Source: Eucommia ulmoides (taxonomy: Eukaryota; Streptophyta; Magnoliopsida; Garryales; Eucommiaceae). From it: 64,000 nucleotides of DNA. Positions 3,541-50,768 of this stretch are shown here, in pieces. The notes under the pieces are model-generated. The model was not told the DNA's origin, made no database searches, and was given only the letters and a program-made list of their open reading frames with translations. Within the stretch, counting starts at the first letter, position 1; each line of letters begins with the position of its first letter. The stretch is from the NCBI GenBank assembly GCA_016647705.1, contig CM028340.1, positions 13,035,001-13,099,000 on the forward strand, written 5' to 3'. The translations under genes and the position numbers were made by a program.

Positions 3541-3740
3541 ATGATATAGACGTAAAAGTGATTTGTATGTTGAATGTAACACTCAATTACATTTAGATAA
3601 TATATAAGACTGTGCTAAATATAACACGAGCGTAAAAACTGAAAATTCAAGAAGTATTATGTTGAATATAACATGAATATAAAAATTAAAAATTCTGAAA
3701 GTAACATGTTGAATGTAACTCGAATTTGAGAGCTAATAAA
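3541..3740. repeat. Cluster of the TGTTGAATGTAACA motif (distal copy)
   Basis: Copies or near copies at about 3569-3582 (TGTTGAATGTAACA), 3613-3626 (degenerate TGCTAAATATAACA), 3659-3673 (TGTTGAATATAACA) and 3707-3719 (TGTTGAATGTAACT). This is the motif that saturates the MULE region at 40.5-50.8 kb. I see no MULE coding sequence here, so this may be the relic of a subterminal region or a non-autonomous relative. Confidence 0.7.
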
Positions 3741-4904
3741 AAAATAATAAATGTATTATCATTTTAATGCCCTTATTAAGACGAATCTGAATATATAATT
3801 AGATCGTGATAAAAATATATAAAATGTACAATACTTATTTGATTTGAATAAAATGATTTTGTTAGGAGAACCGTTACATATGAGAATGAGGATTAAATAT
3901 GAAAAATTCTAATCCCGCGGATTTCACAAGGGCAAATTAATCATGTAAATTTTTGTATTTTTGAATTTAGGATTGGACGGTTCGGAAAATCTATTCACTA
4001 GAATAACTTAGTTTATTTTTCAAACAGTTTGAATCAATTGGTAATTTCAAATAAAATACACTTAAAAAAAATTAGTGGAATTTGCCCAAAAACCTCATCC
4101 CATGAAAACACCACTTTAAGAAGTTTTGTAACAGTGATTTTTTTACACATTAAATAATCTTTAGAAAATTATTTTTGAAATTTTGGATCTCCAAAAAAAA
4201 TTTTCAAAAAAATATTTCGAAATCTCGGCCTAACGTTTCTAAATTGGTTGTGACGAAAAGTCTATCCTTGGCGGCGGAAAAAAGGGAAAAAAACCTGACG
4301 CTAGCTATGTAGATACCTGCTATCAAAGGAAAAAAACCTAACGCTAGCTATATATCTACCCGCAATGGCAATTAATCCTAATAGTTAACACAGAAAGTAG
4401 TGGAAAATTAATAGATGTAAGGAAAATTAGATTGGTAATAGATGTAGGGAAAATTACATATTTGGTCATTTAAGTTTAGGATAGATGTTTAAATAGTCCT
4501 GATCTTTCGTACTTTACACATTTGATTTTTAACTGTTAAATTAATTTTAATGTGATCCAATTGAAAAATCTATTAGGCCAATTTGACCGGATGCCATTTA
4601 TAAAGAGACTTTTTTGTCTTGTCAAGTCCAACTCTGTCACCCTCTCTCTTCTCTTATTCTAGAAATCTCTCCCTCACACACACACAAATACAAACAACAA
4701 AATTCACTCTCTCTTTATATATATATATATATATAAAATTAAACAAAATATATTACTTTTTATTTTTGAATTTGTGTATTTTATATCTTTTCTACTGTAT
4801 AAAAATAAGAATTATTAAAATATATATTTATAAACAAATTATATAAAAATAATAATTATTAATATATATATACATACATACATACACACATATATATTCT
4901 AAAA
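3741..4904. other. AT-rich spacer with a short tandem duplication and microsatellites
   Basis: Around 4275-4362 a roughly 45-bp unit is repeated twice (GGAAAAAAACCT-ACGCTAGCTAT-TA followed by CTACC or ATACC). Short CA-, TA- and CATA-rich runs lie at about 4674-4730 and 4862-4898. No gene seen; the plus-strand frame at 4619-4846 is made of these simple repeats. Confidence 0.5.
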
Positions 4905-5856
4905 TCTATATAATTAAACAAGACGTACATGAACCCTCTAGATAAATCATAACCGTTCTTTATCTCCCACATAAAGAACAGTCTAGTTTGGTCTAAAAAG
5001 TTGTCATAGATATAAGAAGTATATTTATGTCTAACCTTATATAACTTGTACTTAAAAAGAGATAATATATATTTTTTTGGTATAATTGAGGAGAGAGAAT
5101 ACGTATTTCTCTCTCTATATAAATGTATAAAAATAGTATATGAACATTGGATTTCCTAATAAAACTAAAACATTAAATTTACGACAATTAAATTAAAGAA
5201 ATAATATAAAAATATAATATACGAGAATTATAGAAATAATATATATACACAATAAATTTAGTAATAGTACTAAAATATTAAATTTACAAAATTAAATTAA
5301 AAAATAATATAAAAGATATGATACACAAAAATTATGGAAATAATATATAGACGTTAAATTTAGTAATAATAGTGAAATATTAAATTTATAGAAATTCAAG
5401 TTAAAAAATAATATAAAAGAGGAAATATAATATTTATAGAAATAATATATGAACATTAAATTTAACAATAATACAAAAATATTAAATTTATGAATAAATT
5501 AAAAAAATAACATAAAAGATAAAATATAATATTAAAAACCATGAATATTAAATTTACAAAAAATATATAAATAATATATGAACATGAGATTTAATAATAA
5601 TATTGAAATATTAAATTTACGGAAATTAAATTAAAGAAATAATATAAAAGAAGAAATTTAATGCACAAAAAAAATAGACATTAAATTTATGAAATTATAA
5701 AAATAATATATGCACGTTAAACTTGTTAATAGTGCTGAAATATTAAATTTATAAAAATTAAATTAAATAAATAATATAAAATAGAATATAATATACAAAA
5801 ATTATGGACTTTAAACTTATTGACATGATATAAATAATACATGGACATTAAATGTA
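4905..5856 (+). mobile_element. Helitron 5' end with internal AT-rich tandem array
   Basis: Starts TCTATATAATTAAACAAG after an A, matching the 5' ends at 32186 and 39277 (TCTATATAATAAA, then ACATAAACC and CCCTCTAG-like words). A GGAGAGAGAATA segment follows. From about 5130 to 5856 a degenerate unit of roughly 110-130 bp (built from ATATTAAATTTA, AAATTAAATTAAA, ATAATATAAAA and GAAATATAATAT) repeats about six times. The same order occurs in the copy at 39277. No 3' hairpin/CTAG end is visible; the array runs directly into an LTR at about 5857. Confidence 0.6.
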
Positions 5857-6609
5857 AGGTGGAGATGGTGGTTTTCAGGATTGTATCTGAGAAATCGCCG
5901 TTCTACACTATGATGAGCAACTAATCTTCCTTCAATCAAATTAGGATTGTGGTAATGTATTTTGAGTTTATGTAATATTGTGCTTTTCTATTTTATCTTT
6001 AGATATTGTGTAAACAATTGTGTGACAGGAATATTATTCTTAATTTTGATTTTATTGTAAGTGGATTTATTGTCAAAATGTTATTGTAGAGATTTTGGTT
6101 TAAATTTGATTACTATTAGAATATTAGATCTTATATCTATGGTTTAGATCTAATGCTTATACAATCGTATTCTTGGAGATTGATTAATGGTCTGGAGATT
6201 TATGCCTAAATTTTAATTTACTTTAGATTAGTATAGTGTAAGAATTAAATACCGAAGATAAATCACGTCGGAGAATAATAATCCGATCATTCTAAGTAGT
6301 TCCGGCTTGTGGTTGAGAACTCTTATATGTACAAATCCCAGTTGAATATATAAAATGTGAAAACAACATAATACTCAAAATATTAAACTCACAGTTCCTA
6401 ATCCGGTTCTTTATTTTCTTTTGTTTGTAGATTTAGAATTTTATTTTATTTTATTAAAAATCCAAAATCAAACTTCACTTTCATCAAAGGAAGAAAAATA
6501 ATCAGAAATCAATAATTAGAGGACTAATCCCTTTGGTTTGATACATGTACTTAAGCACACTATACTATGATATTTTCCTCTTAAATAGAGTATTAAATTT
6601 GAGCAATCA
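5857..6609 (+). repeat. 5'-truncated LTR of an Athila/Tat-like element
   Basis: Aligns by eye with 31183-31870 over most of its length, for example GCCGTTCTACACTA, GTGGTAATGTATTTTGAGTTTAT and GTGTAAACAATTGTGTG. It ends ...GAGCAATCA immediately before a primer-binding-site-like sequence, as expected for a 5' LTR. The U3 half is missing: the sequence to the left is a Helitron array. The fuller copy at 30380 preserves the U3 and a TATA box. Confidence 0.7.
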
Positions 6610-7356: not shown

Positions 7357-8329
7357 AAACACCGCATTTTATCTTGCCCATTTAGTATCGGATCAAAAGC
7401 GCACATTCGGATAAACTTTAAACTAAGGTTTAAAGGGAACGTATTTCTACCTTAAATTAAATTCGATACTACAAAAAACCAAAAAAAAAAAAAAAAGAAA
7501 AAAAAACAAAAAAGTATAAAATTGCTAATTTGACCGAATTTGATATAAGTAAAAGTTTCGAGTCAATCTCGAAGTACCTAAAGTTAAAGGGGACTCAAAT
7601 GAAATTATTAAAGGTTGATTTTCATGAAATCACTTTTAATATAAATATAAATTAATTACTACCCTTTAACTTAAGAAAATTTCACCAATTACCCATGTTT
7701 CCCTTTTTGACCCCTGAAACTTTTACTATCATCAATTTCGTTTCTTTGACACTAAAAATACTTCTTTAATTTTTCATTTAAAGTATTAATCCTCAAGAAT
7801 TCAAGCCAAAATCCTTCATCAAGTTAAAGAAACTACCATGACAAGTCTAGTTACTCAAGGTATCTAATGCTAAAGATATGGTTCAAAACCAACCAAACTG
7901 AATGTCATTATGACAAGCATTTATGGTCCATCACATCAAGGTCTAATAAAGCATTAAATGACTCATTAATGAGAATTAAACGATGAGATATTTTCAAGAT
8001 ATTTCTAGCAAATATCTAAGATGCAAACCTAGTTACTTGAAAAGTAAATAACGGTTACAAAACTAACTGAATGCAATAAATGATCCATCAAATAAAGGTT
8101 ACATCAATAATTTAAGTCCTAAAATGACCTTTTAAGACTACAATAAAAGAATGGAGATATTTTCATCAAAATATATTAAGGAAACTTAGTTACTTCAAAA
8201 GTAACTAAACTCTTACAAGACTAACCAGATCAAATCCCATCTCATCTAGGCATTAAATGCCCATGAAATAACATTAAATCAAGTCTTTTATGCTTGAAAT
8301 GATATGTAGAGACAACATTCATTGAACAT
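7357..8329 (+). other. LTR-like sequence of an unassigned element, non-coding
   Basis: Begins TGTAAACACCGCATTTTATC, the sort of sequence that opens plant gypsy LTRs, directly after the broken gag remnant. No second copy is visible in the window, so the element cannot be delimited. A poly-A-rich patch lies at 7477-7520. No coding sequence seen. Confidence 0.35.
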
Positions 8330-8539
8330 TGATAGGTGTGAAAAACCTATCTATTTCCAATCCGAATTTGTTAGTTTTCGAATACGTTTATATAGTATTT
8401 TATTATGTTTTAATTAGTTTTTATACTTTTTGTATAAATCAGGTGTGTGGGGCAAAAATATAGGAAACTGGAACAAAAATGATGAGATCGAACCAAAGCG
8501 GTTCGAAGTTACGGTGGATAAACAAGCTCGGAGGCTAAA

Positions 8540-8820
8540 AGATGAAACAGGCCCACTGCCTAGGCGGTGAAGAAGCTGAGAAGAGCAAAATGTTACTGAC
8601 AGATGACTGCCTAGGCGAATTTTCCTTTGCCTAGGCGGAAATCCAGCAGAAGATGCAGATGGGCTTCTGATAGCCGCTCGCCTAGGCAAAGTTTTCTTCG
8701 CCTAGGCAAAAATCCAACAGAATGCTCTCCCAGTCCACCGCCTACTTCACCACCTAGGCGATCAGACCGACCCGACCTAACTCTGCCTAGGTGAAGAATC
8801 CACCGCCTAGGCGGATTTGC
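8540..8820 (+). repeat. Array of paired CGCCTAGGCG palindromes (5' LTR)
   Basis: CCTAGG cores at 8559, 8610, 8630, 8681, 8701, 8753, 8786 and 8806, most inside a longer palindrome such as CCGCCTAGGCGG. Three pairs are exactly 20 bp apart (8610/8630, 8681/8701, 8786/8806), and the first two pairs are 71 bp apart. The array lies just upstream of the LTR TATA box. Confidence 0.95.
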
Positions 8821-8867
8821 CCTGCATAGTCTTGAGATATTTTTAGATATTTTTGAGATATTTTGGC

Positions 8868-8875
8868 TATAAATA
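8868..8875 (+). promoter_or_regulatory. TATA box of the Athila-like 5' LTR
   Basis: TATAAATA followed by a CT-rich leader (CCCTCTCTCCTCCCCC). The identical context recurs at 12611 in the 3' LTR, as expected for the LTR promoter. Confidence 0.7.
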
Positions 8876-10035
8876 CCCTCTCTCCTCCCCCTTAGCCGGG
8901 AATTCTCTTTCCCCCTTGGCTTTTTGAGCCCCTTAGGCTATATATATGGGTATTTTTAGGAATTTTAGAGGGGGAGCTGACATCCCGAAGTGGAGAAGAC
9001 GGCGAATCAATCGTATAACGTTCTTAGCGGTTTATCTTCGGACGAGGCTAAGTTCTTCAATTATTTTTCCTTATTTATTTATCTTAGGATCATGTGAGCA
9101 CGTTTAGCTCTATTTATATGTTTATACAGCTATGGCCACGAGTTAAATATGGATTGTAGTAGGGATTAACAATAAATTTATAAATACGTTGTTTGGATGA
9201 TTTCGGTGTTGCGTTTATGTTTGTTCTTCGTAGTTTGATTGTATTTATCGTATTGTTTGTTTATTATACTTGGATTGATAAATGAAGAATACGGGGTTTT
9301 GACAAATCTCGGATTCAGATTAAGGTAAACAAACGCTACGCTTCTATAACCTGGTCGGGGTTTAAATCGTGGATAATCGATGACGTAGGGCAAGACTCAC
9401 GTGACCTAGGGTCATTAAGACATTGAGGGGGACCTCTTCATTGACTCGAAGTTGCGTTATATCCCTCTTCGTACACTCGGGAGAGGTGGCGAGAGAGTTT
9501 TAGAACGAAGATTGTCTATAGGGTAAATACAACGCGACGATTCAATAACCCGGGAGATAGTTGGATTGTGTGCAATCAATGACACTGGGTGAGACTCACG
9601 TGACCTAGGACCGTTAATACGTTGAGGGGGACTTCTTCGTTGACTCGAAATTATGTATTCCCCCGTCTTACACTCGAGAGAGGTGGCGGTGGAGTTTACA
9701 TACCGAGGTTGTCAAATAGGTTGAACACTGTAAACGTGAGTAAATCGGAATTGAACACATATTTGTAAACACGTTAATTCCTAGGAAATTATTCACCTTA
9801 AAACATATTACCATATTAGTGTAGTTAATTTAGGTTATATTAGTATTAGTTTAATTAATTAAATACATCTGTTTTCGCCTAGATAAAGTTAGGTCACGAC
9901 AAATGCGGTATTCGATAGTAACGACACTAATCCCTGTGGATACGATAACCCGATCTTAACAATCATACTATACTAAAACTTAGACCACGTATACTTGCGA
10001 GTGTAAGTAGCGGCGTATGTTGTACGCCCCTACCA

Positions 10036-22208: not shown

Positions 22209-22757
22209 TCACCTGATCGGAACATCTTTGAACAATATGGGATCATCCCAAAGATAGTTTCTCACATCATGCCGAAATTTCTTCTTCTGAATACTAGACA
22301 TATCCGGGGGTAACACATTACACGCTAATAAATTAATAATATCGGCAAACCAAGGGAGTCTTACCGCCACATTAAAAAGTTGTTCATCAGGGAAGACTTC
22401 CATTATGCTTTCTTCACTATCTTCCTTTGTGATCTCCAGTCTAGACAAGTGATCCACAATGACATTCTCACTCCCTTTCTTATCACGAATCTCTACATCA
22501 AATTCTTGAAGCAGTAGAATCCATAGAATTAAATAGGGTTTTGCATAATTTTTAGCAAATAAATAACGGATAGCTACGTGATTCGTGTAAACAATTTCCT
22601 TAGAGATAATAATGTAAGATCTGAATTTTTCACATGCAAAGACAACTGCCAACATCTCATTCTCTGTAGTTATGTAATTTTCTTGTGCATTATCAAGAGT
22701 CTTATTGGCATAGTAGATTACGCGGAAAATTTTCTCTCTTCTTTGGCTTCGTTCCAA
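22209..22757 (-). pseudogene. RNase H domain of an Athila-like element (degenerate)
   Basis: Residues in order: [77 protein letters not shown]. This is the Ty3/gypsy RNase H, which degrades the RNA strand of the replication intermediate. The acidic Glu in the TEN-E-ML block is kept, but the family TDH is TNH here, so a metal-binding Asp is Asn. The frame stays open into the start of the integrase zinc region ([12 protein letters not shown]). No natural ATG is expected; it is part of a polyprotein. Confidence 0.85.
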
Positions 22758-23633
22758 TCGGGTGCGATAACGATAGGAGCTAAGATCAATTGCTCTTTCA
22801 TCATATCAAATGCCTTCAAGCAAGAATCGTCAAAGATGAACGAAGTGTCTTTCTCTAGTAACTGGCGTGGCTTAGGAAACTACAGACTCCTTTTACATTA
22901 GTTGGTATTCAATCTTTGCTCTATCCACTTCAATCCCTTTAGAAGAAACTCGATGGCCCAGAACAATACCTTTCTTGACTATAAAGTGACACTTCTCCCA
23001 ATTTAGCACAAGATTCTTCTCCTAACATCGCTTTAGCACAAACGATAAATTGTGGAGGCAATGGTTAAAGGATGAGCTGAAAATCGAAAAATCATCCATA
23101 AACACTCCCATAATGTCTTCCACCATATCTGAGAATATCGCCATCATACACCTTTGGAAAGTTGCCAGAGCATTGCATAACCCGAACAACATACGGGGAT
23201 ATACGAATCTCCCATATAGGCAGGTAAAGGTAGTCTTCTCTTGATCCTCTAGTGCAATGGCCATTTTATTATAGCCTGAATATCCATCAAGAATGCAGTA
23301 GTGATCATAACCGGCTAATCGGTCCAACATTTGAACGATGAATGGAAGAAGAAAATGATATTTTCTTGTAGCTTTATTCAGCTTTCGATAATCGATATGC
23401 ACTCTCCATCCCGTAATAGTTATTGTGGGAATTAATTCATTCTTCTCATTTTTCGCCATCGTTATCTCACATTTCTTCGGTACTACTTGCATAAGACTTA
23501 CCCACAAACTATCCAAAATCGTGTAAATAATTTCGACGTTCAATAATTTTAGAACTTTAGCTCGAACTACTTCTTTCATCGTCAGGTTTAATCTTGGTTG
23601 ATGCTCAATCGAGGGCTTGTAAGAATCCTCCAT
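22758..23633 (-). pseudogene. Reverse transcriptase of an Athila-like element
   Basis: Open from 23633 to 23022. Blocks visible in order: EDSYKPSIEHQPRLN, MKEVVRAKVLKLL, QVVPKK, WRVHIDYRKLNKATRKYHF, CILDGYSGYNKMAI, TTFTCLYG, FGLCNALATFQRCMMAIF and FMDDFSIF, which keeps the catalytic Asp-Asp. These are RT blocks of the Ty3/gypsy Athila lineage. Beyond a stop at 23022 the connection region continues in other frames ([20 protein letters not shown] near 22850), with an apparent small deletion. It is followed directly by RNase H and integrase in the usual gypsy order. Confidence 0.88.
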
Positions 23634-23699
23634 TAGAATTTTATGTATGCATATAGTTGGGTTGATTCATTTGATGTCCAAAATGGACCAAGCAAAAGC

Positions 23700-39276: not shown

Positions 39277-40140
39277 TCTATATAATAAAGCTAGATGTAC
39301 ATAAACCCCCTAGATAAAATCACAACCGTTTTTTATCTCTCACATAAAGAATGATCCAGATTGATTCTCTACATTAACATAAATTAAACTCTATATTCAT
39401 ATTAAACATTATATATCCTACATCTAATTGAGGAGAGAGAATATATTTATTGTATAAGTTAGGAGAGAGAATATGTTTTTTATGAATCAGAGTAGAAGTT
39501 TTGTATATAAGTGAGGAATCAAGATCTCTATCGGTTTATAGGAAACGGGCCATCGTTAATCACGCAAGTCTGGCCTAAGAGCCGACTAGAAGGAAGAAGA
39601 GTTCAGTTGTATATATAAATCTATAAAAATAATATATGAATATTAATTTTTTTAATAATATTAAAATATTAAATTTAGAAAATAAAAAAATAATAATATG
39701 AAATAGTGTATGGAAATTATGGACATTAAATATAAGAAAATTAAATTTAAAAATAATAAAAAATAAAAAATATAATACACGAAATATGGACATTAAAATT
39801 ACGTTAAATTTAGTAATAATATAAAAACATTAAATTTATAAAAATTAAATTAAACATTATAAAAGAAGAAATATAATATAAAGAAATTATGAAAATTAAA
39901 TTTAAGAAAGTTTTAGAAATAATATATATAATATTAAATTTAGTAATAACACTAAAATATTAAATTTATGAAAATTTAATTAAAAAAATAAAAGAAAAGA
40001 AAAAATAATAGACGCAAATTATAAACATTCAATTTACATAAATTATACAAATAATATATATAGATTGAATATATTAATAATAATGAAGCATTAACTTTAT
40101 AAAAATTAAATTAAAAAAATAATATAAAGAGAAATATAAT
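39277..40140 (+). mobile_element. Helitron 5' end with AT-rich tandem array (left part)
   Basis: Starts TCTATATAATAAAGCTAG immediately after the CTAG end of the previous Helitron. Like the copy at 4905 it continues with ACATAAACCCCCTAGATAAA, a GGAGAGAGAATAT segment and, from about 39610, the degenerate ATATTAAATTTA/AAATTAAATTAAA array. The array stops at 40140 where the MULE begins, and similar array sequence resumes at about 47015. No hairpin end found. Confidence 0.6.
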
Positions 40141-40485
40141 AGGGGCGTGTACCGGTAGGTCCCTTTCGTAATTCTATGAACCAATCCAATTTTTTTTTTT
40201 TTCCATCATCCACTCCTTTGTGCCGATTTCTGGCCATAATTCTCCTAAAATGTGCAGAATACACTTTGTTTTGTATTCCCTATTTTGCGGCACATTTAAC
40301 AAGCCTCAATGGAATCTTGCAAAATTTGGAGCATGAGCGCGTGAACGTGAACAAACAAAACCAAGATATTTTTTGTTCATCCTGATGTTGAAAAATTAAA
40401 ATTTTTACATCATATTAATCAGAAAAAAATCCTCTTTCTTTTGATATGCTAATTATTTTTTTTGGCCAAGTAAATCTATTTTCAT

Positions 40486-40707
40486 GTGGATATTACATTC
40501 AACACCCAAAGGGGATATTGAATGTAACATCGAAAGCCATGTGTTCGGGTGCACGTTGGGTTGCGTGTGCGATGCATTAGTTCATTCCCTTGTATCGCCT
40601 CTTTCAAAATCTGTCATACTTTCTGTGACGTGGATGTGACCGTTTCGGTAATGACGCGATTTCCATTTGTAGACCTTCTACTTTCTATTCCTATCCAAAA
40701 CCCTAAA

Positions 40708-40753
<46 letters not shown>

Positions 40754-42486
40754 ATATTCCCATATTCTCTAGCGATTTTCAGTATCGAAAGACTTTAAAA
40801 ACCCTCCAAGCCCCAAAACAATGGTGAACACTTGACGTAAGATGAGGATTGTGAACCTCAATACCGCTGCTACCCCCGTGAATCTGACAGACTCGGGTAA
40901 GCTTTCTTGTTTTTTAAATTTTGGTTTTGTGGTCAGCTCTGTGCACAATAAACGCGATTATTAATTTTTTGTTTGTTTGTTTGATCCTAAAAAACTTGTC
41001 ATGCAACAAGTGTAAGGCGCCGACACTCAAAAAGAGTGACCTTCGTACACTATTATTGCGCTCTATTTTCGTTATCGTTACATGTTTTTAGTCCCGCTTT
41101 GGTTTTGTTTTGTGGTTGTCCCTTCAATCTTTGTAAATGAATGTGTTCTTCAGTTAAACTTCTAATTGTTTGTGTTGTTTAAAGATTTATATGTATTATA
41201 TGGCAACTGTATGTGATCGAACCATAATATTCATGTTTTGTCTTGTATGTATACAATGTGTGTATTGGATTGCCAATTTATTTTCGTATGTTGAATGTAA
41301 CAATGTCTATTTAGTCGAAAAATTTCTCATTTTGTGTGTGTTGAATGTAACATTATTTAACTTCATTTTGATTCAAAGGTTAACGTGCGTGTTGAATGTA
41401 ACATTGGTGTAAAATATCCCCAAGCTTACGTTTAGTTTGTGTTGAATATAATATTGTCTTACATTTTAATTTGTGTTTAAAGATGATCAGGTGTCCATAA
41501 AATACATGCAACCCGCTGCGTCGGTCAGTGGGTTTGAAATTTTTCCTATTCTGTTATGTAGCTCGTCTGATGCAGATGCACCTAATTCATTGCTATCATG
41601 AGCTACATATTCACGTCCAGCTGATCCGGTTGCTAAATTCAATGCAAACCTGTTACAATTTTGCTCTCTTATATCTAGTATTCGTCTCCGCAGTTCTTAT
41701 ATTGAACTTCTTAAACGTACATCCTTTTGGAACACTATGTCTACGTTGTTTCCTAATAAATCGGCAAATTTGGATTTCAACAAGATAGATAGTTTGTGTG
41801 TGAATATTATATTACATACCATCCATATCGAAAGGCCTTCAAAATTGGGTCCAAACTATTGTTGTTCTCCCTTGATGATGTACAATTGGTCTTTGGCTTT
41901 ACATCTAGTAAAAAACAAATACCAGGGAGATATGCCAAGAAAATTGATTGCTCGTCCAACCATTGTTGGCGGTTGAAGACTAACCAGATGAGTATGGTTC
42001 ATATCAGGTATATGCTAAGGGGGATTTTGGGAAGTGATCCTGACAATGATGTTGAGGACGTCGTGCAATTGCTCTGTTTACATCTTATTGCGACGATTTT
42101 TTTTTTACAAACAATGGGCAATCATGTAATATCTATGAAATGAAGCTCGTTGAGGATTTGAATGCCCTTTCATCCTATAATTGGGTTGAGTTTGTGCATT
42201 CAAACGTAATGTCTTCCATAGAGGCTAGATATCAAACGTCCTCGTCAGTTATTGGTTGTGTGATTGCGCTATAGGTTATAGATTTTTTTTTTGTTTAAAT
42301 TTTACTTAATAAGTACTGTCCACGTTTGGTGTTGTTTCTGATTTTCAATTCTTATATTCAGCTTTAGTTGAGTGAGCACACTGGCATTATTCGCATTTAT
42401 CTGGACTGCGATTATCTAACATAGGAGAGGATCAGGTATGTTACGGTGATTCTAATACATTTCAGTGTGTGTTGAATATAATATCG
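40486..42486. repeat. TGTTGAATGTAACA motif copies, left part
   Basis: An inverted pair at about 40490-40532 (ATTACATTCAACA, 12 bp, ATTGAATGTAACAT), then direct copies at 41288-41302, 41338-41352, 41389-41404, a TGTTGAATATAATA variant at 41440-41453, and one at about 42469-42482. The copies at 41.3-41.5 kb lie in what appears to be the first intron. Confidence 0.9.
40711..40749. repeat. (CT)n microsatellite
   Basis: About 39 bp of TC dinucleotides, just upstream of the putative start of the plus-strand gene; a CT tract is common in plant 5' leaders. Confidence 0.97.
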
Positions 42487-43084
42487 ACACTGTGTTATTG
42501 ATTGACAGACATATTTCAGGTCAATGAGGGTCATCTCGTTGAGACGATAGCTGAAATACAAGTTGGTGTCGTCTTGCCCATTCATGGTGATAATGAAGAG
42601 TCCAAGGGTTTGCAGTTCGTTCGCATCGATTAGGGATTTTGATCATGTTGCTGTTTCTTCGTTGTCTATTTCTGTGCAAAAATCAAACATCCCACGCCGT
42701 CATATACATCGTAAGTGTTTCTTTTTAAGCTTCAAGTTGTTAATTGGGGGATTTGGGATAATTAAAGTTTTTTTAATGTTTTTAATTCCGATAGGATGGT
42801 TGACAACCACAATAACAACGATTTTGACAAGAGCATAGCGAAATGGGACAAGGAATCAAAATTGTTGATGGAGGTTGCATGGGGACTGCAGTGAAAAATG
42901 GGATGTGCGCAGTGAAGGTACGATTAAATGGTCAAAGACATTAGGGCCATGAAGTTAGAGATCCAGTGTATCAACATGCTCGTCTCGAGTTTGCGAGATT
43001 AGATTGAGATGTTGAGGAACCAGCTAGGTCCTGGTTATGTTACACCCGCCCCCAGCAAATCGTCTGTCTACATGGAGCATTGAA
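40842..43084 (+). pseudogene. DUF1985-like (VANC-like?) gene of the MULE, broken
   Basis: Possible start ATG at 40842 (MRIVNLNTAATPVN), with a GTAAGC donor at 40897. After the motif-bearing intron and an acceptor at 41490, coding resumes: PADPVAKFNANLLQF and IELLKRTSFWNTMST, then after a frameshift FSLDDVQLVFGFTSSKKQIP, KKIDCSSNHCWRL, MLRGILGSDPDNDVEDVVQL, and KLVEDLNALSSYNWVEFVHS. This order (FSLDDV-LVFGF, then L--LL--ATIFF, then LVEDLN-L--YNWVEFV) is that of plant DUF1985/ULP1-associated transposon proteins. Later exons give HTGIIRIYL, then NEGHLVETIAEIQVG and a coiled-coil tail (RAMKLEIQCINMLVSSLRD, LRNQLGPGYVTPAPS) ending at 43084. At least two tail stops sit where unit 2 or the reading sense expects Trp (TGG to TGA). 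I do not see a ULP1 protease triad. Known: in Arabidopsis VANDAL21, the VANC anti-silencing protein is, as I recall, a DUF1985 protein. Equivalence here is inference. Confidence 0.55.
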
Positions 43085-43299
43085 GACCATGTTCGTATTT
43101 ATTTTTTATCTATATGGTCTTTTATTTTTATTTTGGTCCAAATACACTTACTTTGATTCGCCTTTTGTGTCTATAATATACTACTTCCCGTGGCTTTGAT
43201 TCGTCGAAACCAATATGTTTAATACATGTTTTGATATACCGTCAAATGTGTTGATATTCTAGTTGTGTATTATTGTTGAATTCCAAACAAAATACATGT

Positions 43300-43545
43300 G
43301 CTTTGAATGTTACATCCAATAATACCTTTGGATGTTGAATGTAACATGCACACAAAAAATAATTTAACGTGGTTTGACTGTGCATATTGAATGTAATATG
43401 GCTTTGCATGGATGTTACATTCAACATTGCATTAGAAGTTGAACGTAACATGCACATAAAATAGGGTTGTTTTACGTGTTGAATGTAACATGGCTTTCCC
43501 TAGATGATACATTCAACATTGTTTTTTTATGTTGAATGTAATGTG
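43300..43545. repeat. Motif cluster at the transposase 3' side, unit 1
   Basis: About eight copies in both orientations: near 43303, 43332-43347, 43383-43398 (TTGAATGTAATAT), 43412-43426 (ATGTTACATTCAACA), 43438-43450, 43477-43491, 43504-43518 (inverted) and 43530-43542. Flanking words GGCTTTGCATGG and GCACATAAA also recur. Confidence 0.93.
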
Positions 43546-43739
43546 CACATGAAACACAGTTTAAAATGTCATTTTTGACTAAGTGTGTTATGAAAAAATA
43601 ACCCCAATGTAAAACTGTTGTAATATAGTGCGAACAAAACTGTAACCATTCCCCAAAACAAAGAAGACACTGTATGTTATATTTCTGTTTGGATTTTTTT
43701 TACAAGAAATAGATTTTATTTGGTACGAATGAAAGAAAA

Positions 43740-45960
43740 AAAATCAAAGTCTTCATCTCCCCTGTTTGAGTGGTGCTTTGCATGATTTTCCGTTATGTTT
43801 CCCTATTTGACTTCATCTCCAACAACGTCATTCTTTTACCTCTCCAAGTGATGTAATCTAAATTTTTTTTGGCTGTCCCTGTTGTTTCTTTTTTCTAGAA
43901 TACGTCTCCCGATAAAACCAACTCTAAAAGTAATCCTCTATGTATCTGCATGTTGGCAGTCCACTCTTATTTATAGCTATAAATGCATGTGCACATGGGA
44001 AACCTTTGATCTGCCACTGTCGACACGAACATGACCGTCCCTCGGTGTTAACTAATTAGAATGGGCTGAATGAACTCCAAACACTCTATTACCTAATGAG
44101 CTAATGTTCCACATTCGTCAATCATTCATCAATTCGCACATCTTATTATCCTAGTATGGCGTGATCTCACCTTGTAGCTTGTTTTCTTTATCCTTTCTCT
44201 TTGCAATAAGTCCATCCATTGTATCCTTATTTTGTTGATCAACAAAATTACAGGATGGTGGCAAAATTCGCGTATCCCAGAATTAAAACACTCCTCCAGA
44301 TTGGACGTCATCTCACCATATCAGTTTCGTCTGAAAAATGCATTACTGTACTTCATAACTGATAATTCATGGACGAATATCTATACTTTTTTGCCCCCTT
44401 CGTACATTAGTTGATAGTATAGAAATTTGTACATTTCCAGCGTGTGTGCATATGCCAACCCATTCAATTTTGGACCATCATCTTCTTGAATGTCATTCTT
44501 GTTCCAGTCATCGTAGCCCTCAAGTTCATTTTCAAGTGATGCAGATAGTATGCGCGATGGCAGTGAGGGAACATGGTCTATACCCCTTGCAAAATCCCAT
44601 TGTGCCGGTCGAAAATGAATGTCATCACTATTTCTAGCTCGATAATCTTGTTGAATTTTGATGAAAACAAGAACCAATTATCATCGTTTTCTGCATTAAC
44701 AATGGCGAACGCAACTGGGAATATCCTTGCATAAAAAATGACAGAATTTTAATCCATATTGAATGTAACATTGTTATATGTCATAAAAAATGAATGTAAC
44801 GTTGTTATGTGTAAAAACATAATTTATATATGTGCCTTGGTTTTCGTCTTTTGCTGTTGCTGTTAGTAAATTTCCTTTGTACCTATGAGTCAAGAAGGTG
44901 CCGTCGAGAAACAACATGCGGCTGAAAAATCAAAATCCTTATTTGCACTCTTAGAACGCAATGAATATTCTCTTGAAGTGCTTTGTGTCCTTGTTGTATT
45001 CTAGCGCGACGTGACTGCCCGGGTTTGTCTCTCTGCATTTTTCAACATACTATTTTAATTGATTATATGACGATGAGTAGTCACCGAATATTCTATTCTT
45101 GTCTTTTTCTACCCCCATCTATGTATTTCGATATAATATATCTAGTCCATATTGTTTCCTAAAGCTGTCAACGACATCCATGGGGTGAGTTTTCGGATTT
45201 GCACGCACCTTGTCAGCAAAACACGATAATATAATGTCTGAACTTAATCTTTTGTTCCTATTTGTTTGGAATGTAGCACCGCATGTGTTGTTCTTTTACT
45301 AGACTACGAATATAGATTATATCGTTTTCACTCCTCATGTGCCCGTACACAAACCACAGGCAATTTCTTTCCTCTCGCAATACGTATGTACCTGTGACAC
45401 ATATCTTGTCATTTCTAAGATACCAAAAATTAAATCCCACATCTACCACATATTTCTACAGTGCAATGCGAAATTCGGTTATCCCTCCCTTGAATTTTTG
45501 TGCCTCTCTTTTATGCCATCAGCCCATTTTACAGACAACAGTGTTTTGTCGTTGGTAATCTGTAACATATTATCGTAACTGCCTATGTAGTCCATTTCAG
45601 CTTCACTGTCTCTGCTACTACGATCGGTGGCATGAACTATCACGTATGAAGAAGCCTCGGTAGTTACTAACTAGCCTTTCGACACACACTTCAATAAATT
45701 TGATCTTAATAATCCCCGCTAGGAAAAACATTTTCTCAAAGTCATTCTGGTCGTCAAGCATATATTTTGGACGCTCGGGGAGTGAATATGACAACTCGAG
45801 CTTTTTGCCACTTAATTCTAACCATTTGTTTTCAATTTTTGACTCAATTCTGCGATATCGCAATCATTTCTCATTCTCAGTACTGTTGTCACATTCTCGT
45901 AGTTACATAGTAATGGGATTGATGACTTATCCTAGTCAATAAAAAACATATCTCCCATGT
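43740..45960 (-). pseudogene. MULE transposase, unit 1 (vanA-like)
   Basis: Minus strand. N-terminal part (45863-45620): KKLELSYSLPERPKYMLDD, FEKMFFLAGIIKI, EVCVERLVSN, like the N-terminus of MuDR-type transposases. At about 45370-45180: VYGHMRSENDIIYIRSLVKE, then KTHPMDVVDSFRKQYGLDI, the DNA-binding region that precedes the DDE core. At 44677-44381 a spacer-like segment. At 44311-44129: SNLEECFNSGIREFCHHPVI, the conserved block after the core. At about 44033-43990: CSCRQWQIKGFPCAH, a SWIM zinc finger (C-x-C...C-x-H). The protein would cut and insert the element in the nucleus. Many frameshifts and stops separate the blocks; introns cannot be excluded for some. The DDE catalytic triad was not located. 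Confidence 0.75.
44755..44815. repeat. Motif copies inside the transposase gene, unit 1
   Basis: TATTGAATGTAACATTG at about 44757 and ATGAATGTAACGTTG at about 44789, between coding blocks of the transposase, probably in an intron. Unit 2 has the same pair plus one extra copy at 49210-49275. Confidence 0.85.
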
Positions 45961-45964
45961 CATT

Positions 45965-46640
45965 GCAAATGCATATTGAACACACACCTGATTATGTGGA
46001 TGTTGAATATAACATCCATGCATTGTGTCTTGTAGGAGTGGAATGTAACACTCATTGTTTATTTTTCAAAAAAAATGGTAGCAGTAATGTCAATGGCTTT
46101 GTGTCGTGTGCATGTGGAATGTAACACCCTCTGTTTTATTTTTCAAAAATGACAGTAGTAGGTATCTTGTGACATATGTTTTGTTCACGACGATAAAAAC
46201 ATGAAAACTTCAAGAAAATCGAAGACTTCATGAACTTCTTATTCTTGCGGAATGTAACATTCTCTATCAGTGCAAATGCATATTCAACACACACCTGGTC
46301 ATGTGGGTGTTGAATGTAACATCCCATGCATTGTGTCGTGTGGGAGTGGAATGTAACACTCATTGTTTATTTTCCAAAAAAAAATGGTAGTAGTAACGTC
46401 AATAGATTTGTGTCGTGCGTTTATGAAATATAACACTCTCTGTTTTATTTTTCAAAAATGATAGCAGTAGGTATTTTGTGAAATATGTTTTGTCCACCAC
46501 AACAAAAACATGAAAACTTGAAGAAAAATGAAAATTTTCATGTATATCTTGTCCGTATGGAATGTAACATTCTCTGTTTATTGCTCGGAATGACATCAGT
46601 AAATATCTTGTTCTCGCAAATGAACACCTTATCATATATG
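45965..46640. repeat. Two tandem copies of a 307-bp motif-bearing repeat
   Basis: GCAAATGCATATT starts at 45965 and again at 46272. Each copy contains about four GGAATGTAACA(C/T)TC or TGTTGAATGTAACATCC motifs (about 46010, 46040, 46115, 46250 and 46305, 46348, 46420, 46557). It lies directly upstream of the minus-strand transposase, so it is in promoter position. Unit 2 has a single copy (50445-50760). Confidence 0.92.
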
Positions 46641-47014
46641 GACATCAATTGTCCAGATGTTGTGATTGCATGACAAAAGATTACACAAAAAAAAAGAAAA
46701 AAATATAACTTCCATGAACGACTTTATGAAAAAATGTTTGTCCCCCGAAATAAAAGAATGGAACTTCGTCAAAATTTAAATTTGAATACTTATCTTCTGT
46801 CGATGATCACAAACAGAGGTGTATACGTAAAAAATAAATGATTTTTTGCATACCTGTTTTGCTTTGGAAATTTGAATCTATGAAATGATGATTGTTGAAT
46901 ACCGACAATGCTCGATCGGTGATTCTTCGACTTCGGCTCTCTCGATTGGAATACTAAAATGTGTTTGAGAGTGCTCAATCTATGCTTCTCCGATCTCTGT
47001 TCTCTGGATTGATT

Positions 47015-47292
47015 TAGAGAAATTAAATTAAAGAAATAATATAAAAAAAGGAAATATAATATACATAAATTTTGGACATTAAATTCATAGAATTATAGAA
47101 ATAATATATTGACATTAAATTTAGTAATATTTCTTTAATATTAAATTTTTAAAATTAAATTAAAGAAATAATATAAAAAATCAAATATAATATACGAAAA
47201 TTATGAACATTAAAACATATGGATATCAAATTTATTAATAATAAATTTAAAGGAATTTAGATTAAAGAAATAATATAATGAGAAAATATAAT
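47015..47292. repeat. Helitron-type AT-rich array fragment
   Basis: GAAATTAAATTAAAGAAATA, GGAAATATAATATACATAAA and GACATTAAATTTAGTAATAT are the same words as in the arrays at 5130-5856 and 39610-40140. Probably the right half of the array interrupted at 40140. Confidence 0.7.
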
Positions 47293-47541
47293 ATAGCGAA
47301 ATAGGACGAGGAATTGAAATTGTTGATGGATATTGCACTAGGTTTGCAATGAAAAATGGGAGGTGCGCAATGGAGGTACGATTCAATGGTCAAAGGTATT
47401 AGGGCGATGAAGTTAGAGATCCAGCGTATCAATAGGCTCGTCTCGAGTTTGCGAGATGAGATCGAGATGTTAAGGAATCAGCTAGGTCCTGGTTATTTTA
47501 CACCTGCCCCCAGCGAATCGTTTGTCTACATGGTGCACTGA
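47293..47541 (+). pseudogene. Tail exon of the DUF1985-like gene, unit 2
   Basis: The frame is open from the ATG at 47356 to the TGA at 47539: MGGAQWRYDSMVKGIRAMKL, then EIQRINRLVSSLRDEIEM and LRNQLGPGYFTPAPS. It is the same coiled-coil tail as unit 1 (42838-43084) but with the Trp codons kept. Upstream of 47356 two stops (TAG, TGA) interrupt it, and the remainder of the gene is absent because unit 2 starts inside this exon. The heptad pattern of hydrophobic residues suggests oligomerisation. Confidence 0.6.
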
Positions 47542-47754
47542 AGCCCATGTTCGTATTTATTTTTTATCGATTTGGTTTTTTCTTTTTATTTTGGTCCAAA
47601 TACATTTATTTTGATAAGCCTTTTGTGTCTATAATATACTACTTCCTCTGGTTTTGATTCGTCGAAACCAATATGTTTAATACATGTTTTGACACAACGT
47701 CAACTGTGTTGATATTCTAGTTGTGTATTATTGTTGAATGCCAAACAAAATACA

Positions 47755-48000
47755 TGTGCTTTGAATGTTACATGCAACATTGCCTTCGGATGTTGAATGT
47801 AATATGCACATAGAGAATACATGGTTTGACTGTACGTGTTGAGAGTAACATGGCTTTGCATGGATGTTACATTCAATATTGCATTGGATGTTGAATGTAA
47901 CATGCACATAAAGCACGGTTGTTGTACGTGTTGAATGTAACATGGCTTTTCCTAGATGTTACATTCAACATTGCTTTTTGATGTTGAATGTAACGTGCAC
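47755..48000. repeat. Motif cluster at the transposase 3' side, unit 2
   Basis: Copies at about 47761, 47790, 47837, 47863 (inverted), 47889, 47929, 47956 (inverted) and 47981. A perfect 15-bp inverted repeat is formed by TGTTGAATGTAACAT (47929-47943) and ATGTTACATTCAACA (47956-47970) around a 12-nt loop. Confidence 0.95.
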
Positions 48001-48199
48001 ATGACACATGGTTTAAAATGGCATTTTTGACTAAGTGTGTTATGAAAAAATAACCCTAATGTAAAACTGTTTTAATATAGTGGGAAAACAACTGTAACTA
48101 TTCCCCAAAACAATAAAGACACTGTATGTTTTATTTCTGTTCAGAAACAATTTACAACAAATGGATTTTATTTGGTACGAATGAAAGAAAAAAATCAAA

Positions 48200-50420
48200 G
48201 TCTTCATCTCCCCTATTCGAGTGGTACTTTGCGTGATTTCCCGTTATGTCTCCCCATTTGACTGCATCTCCTGCAACATCATTCTTTTACATCTCCAAGT
48301 GATGCAATCTAAAATTATTTTGGCCGTCCCGATTTTTTTCTTTCTTTCTAGAATACGTCTCCCAATAAAACTAACTCCAAAAGTAATCCTCTATGTATCT
48401 GAGTATTGGTAGTCCATTCGTATTTATAGCTATAAATGCATGTGCACATGGGAAACCTTTTATTTGCCACTGTCGACACGAACATGACCGTCCCTCGGTG
48501 TTAACTAATTAGAATGGGCTGAATGAACTCCAAACACTCCATTACCTGATGAGCTAATGTTCTACATTCATCATTCATTCATCAATTCGCACATCTTATT
48601 CTCCTAATATGGTATGATCGCACCTTGTAGCTTGTTTGCTTCATCCCTTCTCTCTGCCATAAGTCCATCCATTGTATCCTTATCTTGTTGATCAACAAAA
48701 TTATAAGAAGGTGGCAAAATTTTCTTATCCAAGAATTAAAACACTCCGCCAGATTGGATGTAATCTCCCCGTATCAGTTTCCTCCAAAAAATGCATTACT
48801 GTACTTCATGACTGAGAATTCATGGATGCATCTCTACACTTTTATGCCCCCCTCGAACATTAGTTGATCGTATAGCAATTTGTACATTTCCAGTGTGTGT
48901 GTGTATATTCCAACCCATTCAATTTTGGGTCATCATCTTCTTGAATGCCGTACTTGTGCCAGTCATCGCAGCCCTCAATTTCATTTTCAAGTGATACAGA
49001 TAGTATGCGTGATGGGAGTGAGGGAACACGATCTATACCCCTTGCAAAATCCCATTGTGTCGGTCGGAAATGAATCTAATCACTACTTCTAGCTCGACGA
49101 TCTTCTTGAATTCTGATGAAAACTAGAGGTAATTATCATTGTTTTCTGCATTAACAATGGCGAACTCAACTGGGAGCATCCTAGCATAAAAAATGGCAGA
49201 ATTTTAATCCATGTTGAATGTAACAAATGTTGAATGTAACATTGTTACATGTTATAAAAAATGAATGTAACGTTGTTATATGTAAAAACAAAATTGATAT
49301 ACGTGCCTTGGTTTTCTTCTTTTGCTGTTGCTGTTAGTAAATTTACCTTGTACTTATCGGTCAAGAAGGTGCCGTTGAGAAACAACACGGGGCAGAAAAA
49401 TCAAAATCCGTATATGCATGTTTAGAACGCAATGAATATTTTCTTGAAGTGCTTTGTGTCCTTGTCGTATTCTAGCACGATGCGACTGCCCAGGTTTATC
49501 TCTCTGTATTTTTGAACATACCATTTAATTGATTATAATGATGAGTAGTCACCGAATACGCTATTTTTGGCTTTTTCTACCCCATCTATGTATTTCGATA
49601 CGATATATCTAGTCCATATTGTTTCCTAAAGCTGTCAACGACATCTACGGGGTGAGTTTTTGGATTTGTACGCACCTCGTCAACAAAACACGATGATGTA
49701 ATATCTGAACTTAATCGTTTGTTCCTGTTTGTCTGGAATGTAGCACCACATGTGTATTCTATTACTAGACTACAATTGTAGATTATGCCGTTTTCACTCC
49801 TCATGTGCCCGTGCACAAATCACAGGCAATTTCTTTCCTCTCGCAATACGTATGTAGTTGTGACACGTATCTTGTCATTTCTAAGATACCAAAAATTAAA
49901 TCCCACCTCTAATGCATATTTCTACAGTGCAATGCGAAATTCTCTTGTCCCTCCCCTGAACTTTTGCGCCTCTCTTGTATGCCATCAGCCCATTTTGCGG
50001 ACAACAGCGTTTTGTCGTTGGTAATCTGTAACGTATTATCGTATCTGCCTATGTTATCCATTTCAGCTTCACTGTCTCCACTACTATGATCGGTAGCATG
50101 AACTATTGCGTATGAGGATGCCTTGGTAGATTCGCTTGAGTTACTAACTAGCCTTTCGACACAAACTTCAATAAATTCGATCTTCATAATCCCCGGTAGG
50201 AAAAACATTTCCTCAAAGTCATTCTAGTCGTCAAGCATATATTTTGGATGCTCAGGGAGTGAATATGACAACTTGAGCTTTTTGCCACTTAATTTTGACC
50301 ATTTGTTTTCAATTTTTGACTCAATTCCACGATATCGCAATCATTTCTCATTCTCAGCACTGTTGTCACGTTCTCGTAGTTGCACAGTAATGAGATTGAT
50401 GACTTCATCCTATTCATTAA
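48200..50420 (-). pseudogene. MULE transposase, unit 2 (vanA-like)
   Basis: The same order of blocks as unit 1: N-terminal LSYSLPE-type and MFFLPGIMKIEFIEVCVERL at about 50280-50150; HMRSENGIIYNCSLVIE and NPKTHPVDVVDSFRKQYGLD at 49816-49590; the SWIM finger CSCRQWQIKGFPCAHAFIAI at about 48488-48436, intact. Relative to unit 1 some positions are better kept and others worse, so both copies are independently decaying. It is flanked by motif clusters on both sides, as in unit 1. Confidence 0.75.
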
Positions 50421-50740
50421 AAAAATATATCTCTCCTGTCATTGCAAATGCATATTAAACACACACCTAATCATGTGGATGTTGAATATAACATCCATGC
50501 ATTGTGTCGTGTAGGAGTGGAATGTAACACTCATTGTTTATTTTTTTAAAAAAATGGTAGCAGTAATGTCAATGGATTTGTGTCGTGTACATGTGGAATG
50601 TAACACCCTCTGTTTTATTTTTCAAAAATGATAGCAGTAGGTATCATGTGAAATATTTTTTTCTTCACCACAATAAAAACTTGAAAACTTTAAGAAAAAC
50701 AAAGACTTCATGAATGTCTTATTCATGTGTAATGTAACAC
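49208..50740. repeat. Motif copies within and upstream of the unit 2 transposase
   Basis: Three copies at 49212-49275 (two abutting: TGTTGAATGTAACAAATG then TTGAATGTAACATTG). Four to five at 50479-50735 (TGTTGAATATAACATCC, GGAATGTAACACTC, GGAATGTAACACCC, GTAATGTAACACTC). Confidence 0.9.
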
Positions 50741-50768
50741 TCTCTGTTAGTGAAAATGCATATTCAAC

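Follow-up and report, generated by a model that had tools for sequence, protein, structure and literature searches.

VANDAL21 (Hiun) of Arabidopsis encodes a transposase and the DUF1985 protein VANC21 and carries a short family-specific motif in tandem arrays in its non-coding DNA. Expression of VANC21 strips methylation from VANDAL21 copies, and the protein binds the motif YAGTATTAY in introns and in intergenic and terminal DNA (PMC5735166). According to the same paper, VANC6 acts on other families, whose targets carry AGTTGTCC or AGTTGTAC, and the unrelated AT9TSD1 carries the VANC6 motif. VANC1 is a further Arabidopsis VANC system in the relevant passage of PMC10398659, Ulp1-bearing VANC genes are mentioned in a review (PMC13317346), and VANDAL elements are described as having a 9-bp target site duplication (TSD) and terminal inverted repeats (TIRs) that are absent or short and degenerate, although some members do have TIRs (PMC6446971). 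Here we compare these systems with a broken Mutator-like element (MULE) in a 64,000-nucleotide stretch of Eucommia ulmoides DNA (contig CM028340.1, positions 13,035,001 to 13,099,000; the whole stretch is called the window), with its intact relatives elsewhere in the genome, and with the DUF1985 proteins that they encode.

The Eucommia elements share the general make-up of VANDAL21 as it is outlined in PMC5735166, namely a transposase, a DUF1985 protein, and a short family-specific motif in tandem non-coding arrays. The layout is the same, with a DUF1985 gene and lineage-specific arrays in the same places, and the mechanism is most likely that of VANC21. By this analogy the system is probably of the VANC type, in which the DUF1985 protein would bind the word of its own family and counteract silencing. 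This kind of system is known from Arabidopsis. New relative to the Arabidopsis systems compared here are the words, their length and dyad symmetry, the inverted neighbours, and the two-base difference between two of the words (M1 and M1', below). Sasaki et al. 2022 (EMBO J) reportedly found that eudicot VANC systems diversified by gain and loss of domains and in motif sequence, density, and helical spacing. The exact 14-mer M1, the only word searched, was absent from 5.39 million PMC papers (CC0, CC BY, and CC BY-SA; no supplements).

A short word concentrated in one element

The original prediction, made from the letters of the window, had pointed to about forty copies of a short word in the non-coding parts of the region that holds the element, and to its scarcity elsewhere. 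With up to two mismatches, the 14-mer TGTTGAATGTAACA (M1) has 42 matches in the window (100 shuffles gave a mean of 1.64 and a maximum of 5). Of these matches, 37, including 12 exact ones, lie at 40491-50739, a local count that is inflated by an internal duplication. The remaining five are at 693, 3568, 3660, 3707, and 33592; with at most one mismatch, no site was found in the 53 kb of the window beyond the element and the cluster near 3.5 kb. Within the element, the sites lie outside the recognised coding pieces, as had been claimed.

In the 947-Mb genome (391 contigs), exact M1 occurs 16,912 times (8,425 plus, 8,487 minus), and the reversed word, used as a control, occurs 15 times (7 plus, 8 minus). 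Across 131 non-redundant sites, each of the 14 positions shows 82-100% conservation, 91% of the sites have a purine directly before the word, and conservation drops to near background within a few flanking bases. As these sites had been picked by likeness, seeding with half-sites was used as a check. The half-site TGTTGAAT (146 contexts) recovered the remaining positions at 70-90%, and ATGTAACA (118 contexts) recovered them at 78-93%. Since each half recovers the other and the flanks are near background, M1 is a short word rather than the central part of a longer repeat. Among 208 adjacent pairs of sites no more than 130 bp apart, 154 have the same orientation, 30 are divergent, and 24 are convergent; 18 of the 30 divergent pairs are spaced 21-25 bp.

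DUF1985 loci and two intact relatives

L014, an M1 locus that had been chosen by its motif, supplied a DUF1985 piece as the query for a protein search. Of the 1,434 candidates, 150 were scored, each with a value of 1.6e-16 or below. Sixteen of the 150 were fetched, ten mostly for long frames and six at about every 24th row. All 16 have at least three sites of M1 or of a related palindromic word, M1' (TGTTACATGTAACA), with at most one mismatch (0.07 and 0 expected in simulated 30 kb). When only exact matches are counted, nine loci have M1 only and seven have M1' only. At the top 30 loci of PF09331, another DUF1985 family, neither word was found with at most one mismatch, and five of the 30 have a single M1 match at two mismatches. 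M1 is thus not equally common in the unrelated regions searched, neither at these loci nor when judged by the reversed word.

Two sister copies, h50 (9,536 bp, in C9:28900300-28914500) and h49 (9,405 bp, in C15:57258100-57272300), are 95-97% identical over most of their length and carry both the transposase and the DUF1985 gene, so that clusters of M1 coincide with relatives encoding both proteins, as the original prediction had expected. The transposase gene comes first and the DUF1985 gene follows on the same strand. In Pfam, the h50 transposase matches DBD_Tnp_Mut (3.9e-14), MULE (4.3e-13), and SWIM (3e-7). The two copies are flanked by two different 9-bp repeats, AAAATTAAA and TTTATTAAA, which are target duplications, and no long TIR was found in either, the ends sharing a few bases in inverted order when compared by eye. 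The 9-bp duplication and the lack of a long TIR are features of VANDAL elements as described in PMC6446971.

With at most one mismatch, M1 has 42 sites in h50 and 40 in h49, and none in the outside flanks (4.7 kb for h50, 4.8 kb for h49). None of the 82 sites overlaps the listed coding frames. These frames are approximate: 74 bp are double-counted for h49, and transposase coding sequence at 4702-5188, where no site lies, is missing for h50. The introns of the transposase gene and of the DUF1985 gene both hold sites, as do the 5' end, the stretch separating the two genes, and a 3' array; the cluster near the left end is of mixed orientation and that near the right end is on the minus strand. 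These are the same kinds of place in which VANC21 sites are located, according to PMC5735166.

When four DUF1985 proteins were compared with Pfam, DUF1985 was the top match in three (E 6.1e-6 to 1.4e-3), all under the 35.1-bit cut-off. DUF287, a domain of VANC21, was not among the Pfam matches of the scanned exons.

The conservation of the motif was assessed in aligned copies, with alignment seeds barred from starting in motif words. In three divergence bins, motif identity was 86, 93, and 98%, compared with 72, 80, and 90% in the flanks, and 108 of 130 sites were above an expectation corrected for the choice of an unmutated query site.

Three words and the DUF1985 tree

The original prediction had seen one new lineage with M1 as its word. 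The link of M1 to DUF1985-bearing elements stands, whereas M1 turned out not to be the only such word, as this genome has at least three classes, distributed in line with the DUF1985 tree. M1' has 6,566 sites in the genome (control 2). The third word, M2 (TTCAGTAGATATCTACTGAA, approximately TKTTCAGTAGATATCTACTGAAMA), is a palindrome whose 17-mer gives 4,914 strand counts (2,410 + 2,504; control 0 and 0). The M2 word AGTAGATATC is present in all 30 top PF09331 loci, and 29 of them have at least five near-matches to the central 18 bases of M2. As in the VANDAL6/VANC6 and VANC1 systems of Arabidopsis, where related families have different motifs and different targets, related families here carry different motifs, and rapid turnover of the motif between families is likewise reported for VANDAL21 (PMC5735166). 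The VANC6 motifs given there are distinct words, whereas M1' is a two-base variant of M1. M1, of 14 bp with dyad-symmetric ends, also differs from the 9-bp VANC21 motif.

The general form TGTTNNATGTAACA has 36,754 strand counts in the genome (control 275), of which 16,912 have a GA core and 13,132 an AC core. At the fetched loci, GA accounts for 176 of the 200 strand counts of the M1 class, and AC for 64 of the 77 of the M1' class. Among the first 100 rows of this form, all on C1, there are 11 clusters with at least two GA or AC cores (six GA only, four AC only, one mixed), a purity that was equalled in 0 of 10,000 shuffles.

The tree comprises 29 DUF1985 rows, namely 12 of M1 (three motif-chosen), 7 of M1', and 10 of the 30 M2 loci. 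On it, the three classes need two changes, which is the minimum and which none of 200 shuffles reached, and the M1' and M2 clades were each supported 100/100. M1' is nested in M1, and the support for an M1-ancestral branch (94/89) suggests the direction of change. The tag is lineage-specific within the sampled DUF1985 loci. What the match with the tree demonstrates is that each word belongs to a lineage, which is not evidence of binding. The proteins of M1 and M1' have a C-terminal block in common; a search of the 30 M2 loci did not find it, although these loci are not long enough for its presence to be excluded.

In every class the word opens with TGTT, or a close approximation to it, and closes with the mirror image; the exchangeable cores in between are GAATGT (M1), ACATGT (M1'), and CAGTAGATATCTACTG (M2). 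The outer TGTT/AACA symmetry had been noticed around the core of M1. Tentatively, the DUF1985 protein might act as a dimer with a coiled-coil tail and read two half-sites, the outer clamp being fixed and the inner part variable. The GA/AC change in one half-site, present in most sites of a lineage, might then have divided a single self-recognition system into two that coexist in one genome; we regard this as possible rather than probable.

Three further observations concern these words. At G000:C1:12296076-12331210, around the DUF1985 match at C1:12301986, M2 words recur every ~219 bp in a satellite-like array that extends for at least 35 kb. Fifty of the 105 PF09331 matches (L017-L046 and others) form 25 same-strand pairs 4.2-5.9 kb apart, so that each M2 element seems to have a pair of DUF1985 genes. 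In addition, TGTTAGATGTAACA occurs in small groups at C1:2178701, C1:2178762, and C1:3968261 and is possibly a further class of word.

Proposed mechanism and alternative explanations

According to the proposed mechanism, the element would belong to a large group of Mutator-like transposons encoding a VANC-type DUF1985 protein. This protein would bind the motif that is arrayed densely in the terminal, intergenic, and intronic DNA of its own family, and occupancy of the arrays would keep the element free of DNA methylation or make it so. In the demethylated state both genes could be expressed, and members of the family, including non-autonomous ones, would stay mobile. If the specificity of the protein changed in a lineage, the arrays would be rewritten together, as the two-base difference between M1 and M1' and the distant M2 may reflect. 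For the question of how an anti-silencing protein evolves in step with the words it targets, the present genome offers three DUF1985 lineages with three words, each with thousands of sites. The two-base difference between M1 and M1' within one genome makes a switch of specificity testable via swaps of protein regions. Eucommia is also a plant beyond the Arabidopsis model in which self-recognition, escape from silencing, and non-autonomous riders could be measured.

Several results weigh against this reading. Clusters in which M1 and M1' are mixed exist at 6.045 Mb on C1 and near 11.227 and 14.310 Mb. Because linked DNA is co-inherited, any sequence linked to the gene would agree with the tree to some extent, and so, in part, would the motif class. 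The arrays of VANC21 are described as having one orientation, whereas here both strands are used and 54 of the 208 adjacent M1 pairs are inverted. Of nine motif-chosen regions (the window and L009-L016), three have DUF1985, one has the transposase alone, and five have neither, which fits non-autonomous riders and also a motif of other cause. The Pfam scores of the M1/M1' proteins are below the DUF1985 cut-off (best E 6.1e-6), and in the fourth protein, L052, the Plant mobile domain (5.6e-5) scores better than DUF1985 (5.9e-3). Finally, the excess of conservation in the most diverged bin is small (0.861, with 0.850 expected), the sites of this test lack independence, and the effect could be enlarged by gene conversion.

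The chief rival is that the motif is a binding site of the transposase for excision, like the subterminal repeats of other DNA transposons, with the DUF1985 protein otherwise employed. It would explain the M1 clusters near both ends of the sister copies. It also has a precedent, as En/Spm TnpA and MuDR MURA of maize likewise lower the methylation of their own elements, the activity that we propose for the DUF1985 protein; the passage of PMC10398659 that reports this mentions no link to DUF1985. M1 is not confined to the ends, however, but also occupies the intergenic stretch and an intron of each gene, where excision would not require it. M2 saturates the surroundings of DUF1985 genes in 3.4-kb stretches that yielded no relative of this transposase, although they are too short to exclude one. 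We therefore consider a transposase site unlikely, though it deserves more weight than the two explanations that follow.

That the arrays are neutral, satellite-like tandem repeats, carried with the elements and functionless, is suggested by the tandem structure of several clusters, by the duplication that inflates the count in the window, and by the M2-bearing array with its steps of ~219 bp over at least 35 kb. Against this, the 14-mer occurs many times both in the h50 family and in the window element, although blastn at 1e-10 finds no stretch of more than 100 bp in common (7.5 vs 6.6 kb). The decay of the flanks to near background within a few bases, the conservation of the motif above its flanks in aligned copies, and the position of 82 of 82 sites in two elements outside coding frames also make this explanation quite improbable. 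A site for a host transcription factor that serves the elements as an enhancer would suit dense arrays beside genes, but a single factor predicts one shared word, whereas the class tracks the DUF1985 lineage and three words are found in one host, and we give this explanation slightly less credit still.

The element of the window and its neighbourhood

The copy in the window has decayed, part of it is duplicated internally, and it is not itself a working system. Its minus-strand transposase, predicted from the letters, was recovered by the SWIM finger PF04434 (E=1.3e-7), by a partial MULE domain PF10551 (E=2.9e-4, under the curated cut-off), and by matches to the transposase of the intact relative. 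The plus-strand gene has frameshifts and an in-frame stop in exon 1. Pfam on its own gave no DUF1985 match for its pieces, though a profile of 30 DUF1985 proteins from the same genome matches two of them (E=9.9e-13 and 2.9e-7), the best value for reversed frames being only 0.59; the relationship to DUF1985 that had been suspected is thus borne out by the profile search. The features are as follows.

40491-40529, unstranded: divergent M1 pair at the left end of the element (motif scan; surrounding sequence common to L016)
40821-40896, plus: remnant of DUF1985-gene exon 1 with in-frame stop (by eye; resembles the first exon of relatives, ...NLTDSG before the GT donor)
41289-41453, plus: four direct M1 sites with a spacing of 50-51, located after exon 1 and before the DUF1985 exon (motif scan)
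41602-42271, plus: DUF1985-like exon in three overlapping frames (same-genome DUF1985 profile)
42470-42483, plus: M1 site (two mismatches) between coding pieces of the DUF1985 gene (motif scan)
43308-43543, unstranded: M1 cluster, three divergent pairs 24-25 bp apart (motif scan)
43762-44733, minus: second part of the MULE transposase with SWIM finger, decayed (domain and relative matches)
44757-44770, plus: M1 site at the transposase intron position (motif scan and intact relative)
44777-45925, minus: first part of the MULE transposase, decayed; partial MULE domain at 44777-44929 (TP1_h50 matches 45324-45851, E=7.2e-34, and 45464-45925)
46001-46569, plus: M1 array outside the transposase gene, inside two 309-bp units (motif and repeat scan)
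47293-50661, unstranded: duplicate of 42835-46182 (transposase and M1 clusters, without the DUF1985 exon; self-comparison)
47766-47995, unstranded: M1 cluster in the duplicate (motif scan)
49212-49241, plus: two exact M1 sites in the duplicate, transposase intron position (motif scan and intact relative)
50480-50739, plus: M1 array at the far end of the duplicate (motif scan)
3568-3720, plus: separate cluster of three M1 sites (motif scan; resembles the motif-bearing locus L011)

The duplication, of about 4.45 kb, repeats 42.8-46.2 kb at 47.3-50.7 kb with 87-93% identity, and the duplicate lacks the DUF1985 exon. Because of it, the approximately forty copies in the window are not forty independent sites. 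The M1 sites at 44757 and 49212-49241 fall where the transposase intron sits, as judged from the intact relative. The two genes are convergent in the window element, and also in L048, so that gene layout varies within the motif group.

In the right-hand array (46037-46569) and its duplicate (50516-50605), a local variant of M1 has GG in place of TG at positions 4-5. In L011, a ~99-bp tandem repeat with open frames at 8247-9129 is unrelated to M1. Three parts of the window, 5121-5857, 39638-40144, and 47019-47295, consist of AT-rich tandem or dispersed repeats of similar make-up, and two of the three adjoin M1 clusters. Minus-strand frames at 22209-23666 resemble, by eye, pieces of a retrotransposon reverse transcriptase and RNase H.

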